Shown: piece after piece, positions 25,056 through 47,773 of the stretch
How the letters are laid out: each line of letters starts with the position of its first letter
How positions within the stretch are numbered: position 1 is the stretch's first letter
Source: Caulobacter sp. FWC2
GTDB lineage: Bacteria; Pseudomonadota; Alphaproteobacteria; Caulobacterales; Caulobacteraceae
NCBI RefSeq assembly: GCF_002742625.1
Contig: NZ_PEBF01000001.1
Coordinates: forward strand, 4,960,001 to 5,024,000
DNA: 64,000 nt
Direction: 5' to 3'
Program-made: the position numbers and the translations under genes
The notes under the pieces: model-generated
The model's database searches: none
What the model was told of the DNA's origin: nothing
Seen by the model: only the letters and a program-made list of their open reading frames with translations

Positions 25056-25069
25056 GCATCGTGCGTGAT

Positions 25070-25149
25070 CCTCGTCCTTCGACAAGCTCAGGATGAGGAT
25101 CATGGCCGGTTCATTGGAAACCTCATCCTGAGCCTGTCGAAGGGCGAGG
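25070..25149. repeat. Paired inverted repeat, type 2, between convergent genes
   Basis: Two 29-base arms (25070-25098 and 25121-25149) in inverted orientation; I count 27 of 29 matching positions. Core: CTTCGACAAGCTCAGGATGA. Each arm also has CCTC/GAGG ends. Located between ampG and the convergent protease gene. A related copy lies at 27905-27982. Confidence 0.9.
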
Positions 25150-27904: not shown

Positions 27905-27982
27905 GACAGGCTCAGGGTGAGGCCGACTGCAAGGCCACGGTTCCAACCGAAAACCTCATCCTGAGCTTGTCGAAGGACGAGG
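27905..27982. repeat. Paired inverted repeat, type 2, left arm shortened
   Basis: Right arm 27954-27982 is nearly identical to the right arm at 25121-25149 (CCTCATCCTGAGCTTGTCGA core). The left arm (27905-27923) keeps only the inner part (GACAGGCTCAGGGTGAGGC). Located upstream of rlmN and just beyond the 3' end of the SDR gene. Confidence 0.85.
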
Positions 27983-27992
27983 TTTTCGCGCC

Positions 27993-40733: not shown

Positions 40734-40857
40734 CAACACCGCTTATCCCCGCGAAAGCGGGGACCCAAGCCGAGGCAGTGGACTAGGGCTGGACCGCGCC
40801 ACCAACCGAAAGCCAGCTTGGGTCCCCGCTTTCGCGGGGATGAGCGGATTGTGTTGG
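40734..40857. repeat. Paired inverted repeat, type 1
   Basis: Arms at 40740-40770 and 40816-40847, inverted, each with a hairpin CCCCGC-GAAA-GCGGGG or its complement and flank ACCCAAGC. Short outer extensions (CCAACAC and GTGTTGG) lengthen the pairing. Located between the cyclopropane-synthase-like gene and the permease. Confidence 0.9.
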
Positions 40858-40923: not shown

Positions 40924-42327
40924 ATGGCCCCGTTCCGCGCCGCCGACCTCCTCCGCCGCAAGCCCGTCGCCCAGGTTCTGGGCGAGCATCCGCCCGAGCA
41001 CCTGCCGCGCACGATCGGCCTGTTCCAGTTGACCATGCTGGGCGTGGGCGCCACGATCGGCACCGGCATCTTCGTGGCCCTGACCACCGCCGTACCGGCG
41101 GCGGGTCCGGCGGTGATCCTGTCGTTCGTGCTGGCCGGGATCACGGCGGCCCTGACGGCCCTGTGCTACGCCGAGCTGGCCTCGACCATCCCGGTGTCGG
41201 GCTCCTCGTACTCCTACGCCTACGCCACCCTGGGCGAGTTCGTCGCCTTCATCGTCGGCGCGTGCCTGCTGCTGGAATACGCCGTTTCCGCCTCGGCCAT
41301 CGCCGTGGGCTGGGGCCAGTATCTGAACGAGATGCTGGTCGACCTGATCGGCGTGAAGATGCCCGACGCCATCGCCAAGGCGCCGGGCGCGGGCGGGGTG
41401 TTCAACCTGCCGGCCGTGGTGCTGGTCGGGGCCTGCATGGTGCTGCTGCTGCGCGGGGTGAAGGAGTCGACGACGATCAATGCCATCCTGGTGGTGCTGA
41501 AGCTGCTGGTCCTGCTGTTCTTCGTGGTCATCGCCTTCAGCGGCTTCCACGCCGGCAACCTGACGCCGTTCATGCCGATGGGCGTGGCGGGCGTGGGCGC
41601 GGCCGCCTCGTCGATCTTCTTTTCCTATATCGGCATCGACGCGGTCTCGACCGCCGGCGAGGAGGTCAAGGACCCGCGCAAGACCCTGCCGCTGGGCATC
41701 GTGCTGTCCCTGCTGATCGTCACGGCGGTCTACATCCTGGTCGCCCTGGCCGCCGTCGGGGCCCAGCCCTGGACCGCTTTCAAGGGCCAGGAAGCCGGCC
41801 TGGCGGTGATCCTGCGCAACCTGACGGGCCAGGCCTGGACCTCGCTGATCCTGTGCGTCGGGGCGATCGTGTCGATCTTCTCGATCACCCTGGTGGTCAT
41901 GTACGGCCAGACGCGGATCCTCTACGCCATGAGCCGCGATGGCCTGCTGCCCAAGGTGTTCCAGCGCCTGCATCCCAAGACCCGCAGCCCGGACCTCAAT
42001 ACCTATATCGTGGCAGCCTTCATCGCCGTGCTGGCGGCCTTCGTGCCGCTGGACGTGCTGGTCAACCTGACCAGCATGGGCACCCTGATCGCCTTCGCCA
42101 TCGTCTCGCTTGGGGTAATCATCCTGCGCCGAACCCAGCCGGATCTGCCGCGCGGCTACCGCGTACCGCTCTATCCGGTCGTGCCGGTGCTGAGCGTGGC
42201 GTTCTGCGGGTATCTGATCGTCGGACTGCCGCTGGATACGTGGCTGCTGTTCGCGGTGTGGGTGGCGGCGGCCTGCGCGATATACTTCGGGTATTCGCGG
42301 AAGAACTCCATGCTTAATCTGGCCTAA
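40924..42327 (+). CDS. APC family amino acid permease
   Basis: A 467-residue transporter with 12 hydrophobic segments. The first helix carries GVGATIGTGIFVALTTAVPAAGPAVILSF, the substrate-binding signature of the amino acid/polyamine/organocation family. ELASTIPVSGSSYSYAYATLGE follows, then FFSYIGIDAVSTAGEEVKDPRKTLP in helix 6. The pattern is that of cationic-amino-acid-transporter-like (YfnA/CAT) permeases. Substrate not certain. Confidence 0.92.
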   Translation: MAPFRAADLLRRKPVAQVLGEHPPEHLPRTIGLFQLTMLGVGATIGTGIFVALTTAVPAAGPAVILSFVLAGITAALTALCYAELASTIPVSGSSYSYAYATLGEFVAFIVGACLLLEYAVSASAIAVGWGQYLNEMLVDLIGVKMPDAIAKAPGAGGVFNLPAVVLVGACMVLLLRGVKESTTINAILVVLKLLVLLFFVVIAFSGFHAGNLTPFMPMGVAGVGAAASSIFFSYIGIDAVSTAGEEVKDPRKTLPLGIVLSLLIVTAVYILVALAAVGAQPWTAFKGQEAGLAVILRNLTGQAWTSLILCVGAIVSIFSITLVVMYGQTRILYAMSRDGLLPKVFQRLHPKTRSPDLNTYIVAAFIAVLAAFVPLDVLVNLTSMGTLIAFAIVSLGVIILRRTQPDLPRGYRVPLYPVVPVLSVAFCGYLIVGLPLDTWLLFAVWVAAACAIYFGYSRKNSMLNLA

Positions 42328-42336
42328 CACCAAAAC

Positions 42337-42367
42337 CGCTCATCCCCGCGAAAGCGGGGACCCAAGC
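42337..42367. repeat. Type 1 repeat, left arm of the pair around the GIY-YIG gene
   Basis: Contains CCCCGC-GAAA-GCGGGG followed by ACCCAAGCT; the inverted partner is at 42745-42776 on the other side of the GIY-YIG gene. The hairpin also lies between the convergent permease and GIY-YIG genes. Confidence 0.9.
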
Positions 42368-42386
42368 TGAGTTGGCGCGATAGGAC

Positions 42387-42680
42387 TCAGCAGTTCAGTG
42401 TCTCGGAGAGATCGGCCCAAGTGGGGTTCAGGGTCTCGATCAATTGGATTTTCCAAGCGCGGTTCCACTTCTTGATCTGCCGCTCGCGCGTGAAAGCTCC
42501 CTCCCGCGTTTCGCCCATCTCGTACCAGACGAGCCGATCAACGCCGTACTTCGAGGTGAAGCCCTTGCGGAGCTTCTGCTGATGCTCCCAGATGCGACGC
42601 GCGAGGTCGTCGGTATGGCCGCAGTAGAGCGTGCCATAGGGCCTACTGGCCAGCAGGTAGACGCAGAACATCTTGTCCAT
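42387..42680 (-). CDS. GIY-YIG domain protein (UPF0213-like)
   Basis: A 97-residue single-domain protein from ATG 42680. GIY-YIG nuclease pattern: CVYLLASRPYGTLYCGHTDDLARRIWEH, with Tyr8, the LYCG variant of YIG and Arg at about 29. TREGAFTRERQIKKWNR carries the Glu region of the UPF0213/YhbQ-like group. Activity of this small group is poorly known. The gene is bracketed by inverted type 1 repeats (42337-42367 and 42745-42776), so the unit resembles a small mobile or repeat-linked cassette. Confidence 0.9.
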   Translation of the reverse strand: MDKMFCVYLLASRPYGTLYCGHTDDLARRIWEHQQKLRKGFTSKYGVDRLVWYEMGETREGAFTRERQIKKWNRAWKIQLIETLNPTWADLSETLNC

Positions 42681-42744
42681 GATCGCGCTCGCTTTGAGAA
42701 CACATCATGAACATACGCCAGCCACACTCGCAACAGGAGATTCG

Positions 42745-42776
42745 GCTTGGGTCCCCGCTTTCGCGGGGATGAGCGG
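42745..42776. repeat. Type 1 repeat, right arm of the pair around the GIY-YIG gene
   Basis: Inverted copy of 42337-42367 (GCTTGGGTCCCCGCTTTCGC core), upstream of the GIY-YIG start and just beyond the glmS stop. Confidence 0.9.
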
Positions 42777-42809
42777 CGTTTGTTGATGCGGGTGGAGCGG
42801 TTAGCGCCC

Positions 42810-44630
<1,821 letters not shown>

Positions 44631-46880: not shown

Positions 46881-46979
46881 GCCGGCCTTCGTCCTTGTCT
46901 TCCTACCCTGATCGTCAGGTCTAGCGCTCGCGAGGCGAGGCCGTCCAGCGTCCAAACCAACGCCATACATCCACCCGAT

Positions 46980-47099
46980 CTCCCCGGCGAAAGCCGGGGC
47001 CCAGATCGAACCCAGAGCGCGCGTTGATTTGGCTGGGAAGAAGGGCGTGATCACCCCGGTCTCCCAGGATGAATCTGGGCCCCGGCTTTCGCCGGGGAG
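46980..47099. repeat. Paired inverted repeat, diverged type 1
   Basis: Arms CTCCCCGGC-GAAA-GCCGGGG (from 46980) and the inverse CCCCGGC-TTTC-GCCGGGGAG (to 47099), with CCCAGAT flanks. Same layout as type 1 with the stem changed from CCCCGC to CCCCGGC. It fills most of the 269-base gap between two divergent genes, so promoters here must be short or inside the repeat. Confidence 0.85.
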
Positions 47100-47149
47100 A
47101 GCGGAATTTGGAATTGGAAGCAGGGGCCAGGCCCCTTAAACAGCCTCGC

Positions 47150-47663: not shown

Positions 47664-47773
47664 CCGCTCATCCCCGCGAAAGCGGGGACCCAAGCGGATT
47701 TTCGGGGTGCTGCTCGGTCGTGATCTCGCCTGCGGACTCGGTTTGGGTCCCCGCTTTCGCGGGGATGAGCGGG
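47664..47773. repeat. Paired inverted repeat, type 1
   Basis: Arms at 47664-47695 (CTCATCCCCGCGAAAGCGGG core) and 47751-47772 (inverted). Nearly identical to the copies at 40740 and 42337. Located between the editing-protein gene and cnoX. Confidence 0.9.

Follow-up and report, generated by a model that had tools for sequence, protein, structure and literature searches.

The window analysed here is a stretch of 64 kb from the genome of Caulobacter sp. FWC2. It carries a 97-codon gene for a GIY-YIG nuclease (42387-42680, minus strand), located in the spacer between two convergent ORFs, 40924-42327 and 42810-44630, which we take from the look of their sequences to be permease-like and glmS-like, respectively. 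A short palindromic repeat (REP) lies on each side of the gene. The left REP (42336-42367, plus strand) consists of an outward tag CCGCTC, a hairpin CCCCGC-GAAA-GCGGGG and a tail ACCCAAGC, and sequence comparison identified the right REP (42745-42776, minus strand) as its inverted copy. The original prediction of a 97-codon GIY-YIG gene between inverted repeats was thus correct, except that the arms, given there as 31 nt, form a perfect inverted repeat of 32 nt starting at 42336. With ungapped extension, the match covers 42329-42370 and 42742-42783 at 90%. The whole REP-GIY-REP unit spans 441 bp (42336-42776); it has an edge-to-edge match at another locus in a relative, and its site is empty in two other genomes. 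Among 612 windows of equal size from the rest of the 64 kb, none had a bracketing inverted repeat with a score of at least 20, indicating that the bracketing of the GIY-YIG gene is not due to chance.

The encoded protein is a member of the GIY-YIG nuclease superfamily. Its sole Pfam match is PF01541 (58.5 bits, the cut-off being 22.6), and an NCBIfam search with it returned no match. Residues Y19, G21, R29 and E82 are invariant across 27 aligned sequences, the Tyr, Arg and Glu among them being presumably the catalytic residues of the GIY-YIG domain. AlphaFold gave a high-confidence model (mean pLDDT 93.8), whose top Foldseek match, the only entry under E 0.001, is the UPF0213 protein 1zg2 (E 1.9e-4). 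Weaker matches follow, to Slx1 entries (from E 0.005 upwards) and to the nuclease domain of UvrC (from E 0.2 upwards). According to the titles of its structure entries, Slx1 processes branched DNA; purely by analogy, an activity of this type would fit a hairpin or cruciform target. The dN/dS ratio of the window gene was 0.07 and 0.11 against two relatives, and it ranged from 0.03 to 0.15 in 19 out of 20 chosen pairs of family genes, the remaining pair being saturated. These low values indicate that purifying selection has kept the family protein working. Some family copies among the Caulobacter genomes contain in-frame stops.

Bracketing in other genomes was assessed with a motif-free test, in which an inverted repeat flanking the gene has to score at least 20. 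Family relatives were retrieved at E 0.001 or better in 66 out of 75 Caulobacter genomes, although the weakest matches may be other GIY-YIG genes. Forty Caulobacter loci, fetched with flanks of about 8 kb and not including the window gene itself, were chosen by hand rather than at random, comprising 30 listed matches from genomes of at most three contigs, the second gene copy of Caulobacter sp. FWC2 and nine others. Nineteen of the 40 were bracketed, compared to 4 out of 1880 sliding windows. Control genes, obtained with a simple longest-first ORF caller and tested with their own flanks, were bracketed in 1 out of 372 cases at these loci, and in 0 out of 89 when restricted to genes of 240-480 nt. 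A contig search seeded with the single window protein gave 570 matches, from the best 80 of which 11 were dropped because no more than 300 bp separated the gene from the end of its contig. Among the 69 named loci that were kept from these best 80 of 570 matches, 39 were bracketed, compared to 2 out of 1514 windows, 0 out of 198 other genes and 0 out of 70 genes of 240-480 nt. Bracketing by inverted repeats is thus a frequent feature of the family. The inverted match was better than the direct one in 13 of the 19 bracketed Caulobacter loci (direct better in six) and in 27 of the 39 bracketed named loci from the best 80 of 570 matches (direct better in nine, three tied). A direct match sometimes outscores the inverted one because REPs are near-palindromic and often paired on one side.

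Bracketed records labelled as Chloroflexi, Nitrospinae, Bacteroidales, Planctomycetota and cyanobacterium were also found (L152, L154, L158, L162, L186 and L175), the first five of which are MAGs, so that their taxon labels may be wrong. In a draw from the whole phylum, 30 loci were fetched, and after exclusion of the window itself and four loci with short flanks, 14 of the remaining 25 were bracketed. A plasmid collection contributed six loci from 35 records: those of Neisseria gonorrhoeae, Azospirillum, Aeromonas and Sphingobium were bracketed, the Rhizobium locus had no bracket by the inverted-repeat test, and the Planktothrix locus carries repeats of the GTCATTCTGAG type to either side, yet was unbracketed by the same test. 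On the Azospirillum lipoferum plasmid (L105, 3001-3294), the REP-flanked GIY-YIG gene is located within a suf gene cluster, where sufB and sufC are its neighbours. The Neisseria gonorrhoeae record (L104, NZ_CP119140.1) is filed as a plasmid, but at 2.17 Mb it looks chromosome-like. Six out of seven loci on viral contigs were bracketed, while the seventh scored 16. A gene for a terminase large subunit or a portal protein was present within about 750 bp in the five of these seven loci that were scanned (10 ORFs); our guess is that contigs L288, L290, L292, L293 and L294 perhaps carry alphaproteobacterial clusters resembling gene transfer agents, rather than being free phages. Three further small GIY-YIG genes, retrieved by Pfam search from the same Caulobacter genomes, were unbracketed. 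The association between this GIY-YIG family and REPs is real and strong, and it reaches well beyond the genome of Caulobacter sp. FWC2.

To characterize the repeats themselves, we used a tagged-hairpin detector, which in its final version found a REP within 300 bp of 39 out of 59 Caulobacter family genes, compared to 46 out of 1880 control windows. The 59 genes comprise the 40 loci described above and 19 of the 30 loci of the 75-genome search, after removal of the window itself and ten duplicates. A strict version gave 33 out of 59 against 40 out of 1880, and a loose first version, which matched on both sides of 120 out of 1880 control windows, was discarded. By the strict detector, no REP was found at seven out of seven UvrC loci, a small control to be read against the background of 40 in 1880 windows. 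The remaining 20 of the 59 family genes had no REP detected within 300 bp, and the occurrence in relatives of the gene without repeats, which the original prediction had named as evidence against itself, is therefore partly borne out.

The REPs were assigned to three classes by length, namely A (25 nt), B (27-28 nt) and C (33 nt and more). More than one REP was present at 30 of the 39 REP-bearing loci, and classes were mixed at none of these 30. Classes B and C carry the tags GTCAT or GTCTT, while the class A tag is GCTC in Caulobacter, including the window, and in some other Alphaproteobacteria, and CGTC in others. In 63 out of 88 distinct 25-mers near genes (75 out of 132 loci), the hairpin arms pair at no fewer than 5 of 7 positions, whereas arm-shuffled 25-mers reached this number of pairs in 40.7 cases on average and in 50 at most; the starts of these 63 are GTC in 30 and CTC in 33. 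The class A hairpin shows base changes on both sides of pairs while pairing persists.

When mapped onto the protein tree of the 59 genes, REP class required only three changes (the minimum being two), compared to a mean of 15.1 for shuffled labels, none of 200 shuffles reaching a value as low as three, albeit the class boundaries were set after the repeats had been seen, so that the test is not blind, and near-copies also favour it. Class A occupies one side of a branch with support values of 99/97, while classes B and C require two changes each. In several genomes two lineages coexist, each with its own REP class: A and B in G005, G010 and G015, and B and C in G045 and G048. The same applies to Caulobacter sp. 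FWC2, with class A at the window gene and class B at L064 (G000:C1:3020635-3020910). The latter is the second small GIY-YIG gene of the genome, belongs to the other lineage and is accompanied by a class B REP pair on just one of its sides. The gene-adjacent REP type is multicopy for classes A and B in Caulobacter sp. FWC2, A in G010, C in G033, and B and C in G045. No further copies of the class B REPs of G010 were found among the places listed, with a search pattern that needs a tail absent from at least one of them. At the protein level, positions 5, 22, 24, 59 and 63 fully separate the 22 class A proteins from the 17 class B/C proteins, and positions 4, 58, 60 and 67 nearly do so. Since REP class agrees with protein lineage, it is very probable that each nuclease recognizes REPs of its own class.

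The REP of the window is also dispersed in the genome without the gene. A pattern search detected 26 exact copies of its core, TCCCCGCGAAAGCGGGGA, 24 of which make up 12 plus/minus pairs, the other two being partnered by copies with one and two mismatches. All 14 resulting inverted pairs are ordered plus then minus. Their spacing, start to start, is 41-190 bp in 13 pairs and 409 bp in the pair enclosing the GIY-YIG gene; the 190-bp pair owes its length to a nested pair of another REP type. The 12 pairs compared have different interiors and share an outward-facing edge, CCGCTC or a near variant of it, at each end. Within the window, the two gene-free close pairs of the same repeat that had been predicted are indeed present, at 40739-40770/40816-40847 and 47664-47698/47738-47772, and both are REPIN-like. 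The first pair (40739-40847) is missing from five out of seven genomes with the same neighbours (own included), and has a counterpart pair in one of the six others (G038). At the second site (47664-47772), there is no pair in six out of eight such genomes (own included), and one of the seven others (G061) has a class-B-like pair. An origin of the gene-free pairs by internal deletion of the nuclease unit is unsupported, as their interiors share, by eye, merely the first few bases.

Other repeats occur in the same genome. Repeat comparison revealed at 46975-47104 of the window an inverted pair of a variant REP, with the stem CCCCGGC/GCCGGGG and the same overall anatomy. A class B pair lies nested within a class A pair at G000:C1:950096-950309 (L225), an apparent insertion of one repeat unit into another. 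A different palindromic repeat, of the CCTCATCCTGAGCTTGTCGAAGGACGAGG type, is present in three copies at window positions 25063-25149 and 27954-27989.

Joint gain or loss of gene and repeats across Caulobacter had been proposed as a check. Two complete REP-rich genomes (each a single contig, 99% complete) speak against an obligate coupling of the two: hairpin matches number 147 in G012 and 84 in G072, but neither genome has a small GIY-YIG gene, the single GIY-YIG match in each being in a frame of UvrC length. Among 75 Caulobacter genomes, the number of GIY-YIG genes and that of hairpins were correlated with rho 0.26 (p 0.024), and after dropping eight incomplete genomes with 0.17 (p 0.18, 67 genomes). 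We rejected the idea that GIY-YIG number drives REP number, given the weakness of this correlation. Hairpins were fewer in genomes without a family match (median 17, n=9, of which four are under 84% complete) than in those with one (median 72, n=66; p 0.007).

Positions 42332-42775 of the window align at 78% with a copy in genome G013 (L049), and the long match ends at the outer REP edges. That copy is located at 1.85 Mb, whereas glmS of the same genome is at 0.14 Mb, that is, at an unrelated locus. The permease-glmS neighbourhood is kept in 10 out of 21 genomes examined (own included), and the content of the spacer varies among them. It is empty in G061 (12 bp) and G025 (10 bp). A gene-free REP pair occupies it in G038 and a single class C REP in G013, and in G064 it consists of 44 bp without a REP. 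Other sequence is found there in G012 (1288 bp; L274 / L082), G011 (591 bp) and G015 (263 bp), and an eleventh genome, G016, has a spacer of 675 bp. In G020, the spacer holds the unit in the opposite orientation, which could be due to an independent insertion or to an inversion between the arms. In G034 (L068) and G004, a family gene lies within 260 bp of glmS, and both are bracketed (score 24 in G004). Neither a target-site duplication nor a joined product was observed, and the comparisons yielded no exact junction. These comparisons suggest that the GIY-YIG gene and its REPs probably move as a unit. The chances that this movement is driven by the unit's own nuclease appear to be even, and part of it could be explained by inversion or recombination between REPs. 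The RAYT-like part envisaged for the small nuclease gene in the original prediction is well supported as an association, as seen in the bracketing, the agreement between class and lineage, and the whole-unit movement.

Small GIY-YIG nucleases called Ssn are reported (Chenal et al., Nat Commun 2025) to cut ssDNA at a repeat of which Neisseria has hundreds of copies, and many Ssn homologues are said to cut their own sequences. The window protein shares 58.1% identity over 89% with an N. gonorrhoeae ORF, which we assume to be the published Ssn, and the Ssn report probably covers the window enzyme as well. Our preferred reading, to which we give a probability of roughly 0.65, is that the window contains a compact mobile REP-GIY-REP unit, whose nuclease recognizes its own REP type, in a partnership similar to that of RAYTs with REPs but built on an unrelated nuclease. 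The repeat would be a tagged hairpin of the CGTC REP type, with an outward tag CGTC or GCTC, a stem-loop and a CCCA/TCCA tail. Acting on single-stranded or extruded DNA, the nuclease would recognize its own REP by the tag, loop and tail, and would cut at the outward tags, or at the hairpin, of its own REP class; this cutting is proposed on the basis of the fold and of the report on the Neisseria relative. New copies could then arise via repair or strand insertion of a REP pair that has been released or copied, either alone or together with the gene. Short gene-free REP pairs would be non-autonomous relatives, now or formerly reliant on such a nuclease, as REPINs are on RAYTs.

A different role for the same activity is possible, though considerably less probable. 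The protein could be a host-serving nuclease, involved in genome maintenance or in modulating DNA uptake, that cuts ssDNA at REPs, as the Neisseria Ssn nuclease, the model for this idea, reportedly does at its repeats. Gene-side REPs would then have a role in regulation or in sequence exchange, and movement of the locus would be due to homologous recombination between REPs and not to transposition of its own. The strong purifying selection on the family protein is in line with such a role, as is the 58% identity to an N. gonorrhoeae ORF that is itself bracketed by CGTCATTCCCGCGCAGGCGGGAATC repeats, and REPs at the edges would allow recombination to move or flip the gene. However, the patchy presence at the site among relatives looks more like that of a selfish element, some genomes manage without any small GIY-YIG gene, some copies have in-frame stops, and several paralogues coexist in a genome, each beside its own REP class, all of which fits a host function less well.

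We consider it improbable that the gene is a passenger, carried by REPs that another transposase (e.g. RAYT or IS200-type) moves and playing no role in their movement. CGTC REPs have been suggested to be perhaps mobilized by other transposases, according to Di Nocera et al. (2013, PMC3733652), but one gene family rather than an assortment of passengers is bracketed here, other genes being bracketed in 1 out of 570 cases across the two sets (the named set coming from the best 80 of 570 matches), and REP class follows protein lineage. Finally, such hairpins are common in these Caulobacter genomes, so that abundant intergenic hairpins or plain terminators might flank a small intergenic gene by chance; this is refuted by the counts for other genes of 240-480 nt, which were bracketed in 0 out of 89 and 0 out of 70 cases, against 19 out of 40 and 39 out of 69 for the family (the latter from the best 80 of 570 matches).

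Returning to the mobile REP-GIY-REP unit, a broader proposal, which in our view could equally well prove right or wrong, is that the CGTC REP superfamily does have dedicated enzymes, hitherto missed, in the GIY-YIG nucleases. The units would be autonomous elements of the ssDNA type and the dispersed pairs their non-autonomous copies, and the design of a nuclease plus a tagged hairpin pair would have evolved twice, with HUH nucleases (RAYT/GTAG) and with GIY-YIG nucleases. If true, a cognate nuclease would explain the origin of many intergenic hairpins, the RAYT/REP partnership would have a second, independent counterpart, and REP mobility would become testable in Caulobacter. The family would also be a source of small repeat-specific nucleases with natural specificity classes, positions 5, 22, 24, 59 and 63 being candidate specificity positions. 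Should the Ssn report name neither CGTC REPs nor movement, then the identity of the REPs, the agreement between lineage and class, and the mobile unit would be additions to it; otherwise the window locus would be a further example of a kind already described.

Among known systems, Ssn resembles the window locus in that it reportedly combines a small GIY-YIG protein with a multicopy cognate repeat, and the Neisseria homologue is bracketed by CGTC-type repeats. The window repeat is likewise multicopy and adjacent to the gene, and is probably the cognate target. By profile and model, UPF0213, UvrC and Slx1 appear to share a superfamily or fold with the window protein; UvrC differs in having no REP at any of seven loci (strict detector, small control).

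With regard to the repeats, Di Nocera et al. (2013, PMC3733652) describe CGTC REPs in five phyla, with no dedicated transposase reported, as prevalent in Alphaproteobacteria, and list C. crescentus among the CGTC-positive species; the term GIY-YIG does not occur in that text. Nor did a term search of RepRanger (2025, PMC12306157) retrieve GIY-YIG or RAYT, and a literature search, judged mostly from titles, found no paper linking GIY-YIG to REPs. The repeats described here share with the CGTC REP superfamily the stem-loop, the CCA-type tail and the pairs in opposite orientation (PMC3733652), while the tag agrees in part, as the class A tag here is GCTC, not CGTC. Class A REPs have a 4-nt loop, an ACCC/ATCC tail and paired arms, which fits the stem-loop expected of CGTC REPs (4-5 nt loop, CCA-type tail), and, as expected of these, they occur in many copies and in pairs of opposite orientation. 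RAYTs with their GTAG REPs and REPINs differ in two respects: the window nuclease is a GIY-YIG rather than an HUH/Y1 tyrosine enzyme, with PF01541 as its sole Pfam match and a GIY-YIG-like model in place of the HUH motif and Y1 catalytic tyrosine that define RAYTs, and the tag here is CGTC or GCTC, not GTAG. The likeness lies in the arrangement, since in both cases a small nuclease gene sits between short tagged palindromes and many inverted pairs lack the gene, and at the window locus, as in a RAYT/REPtron, the gene is flanked by palindromes that are dispersed in the genome.
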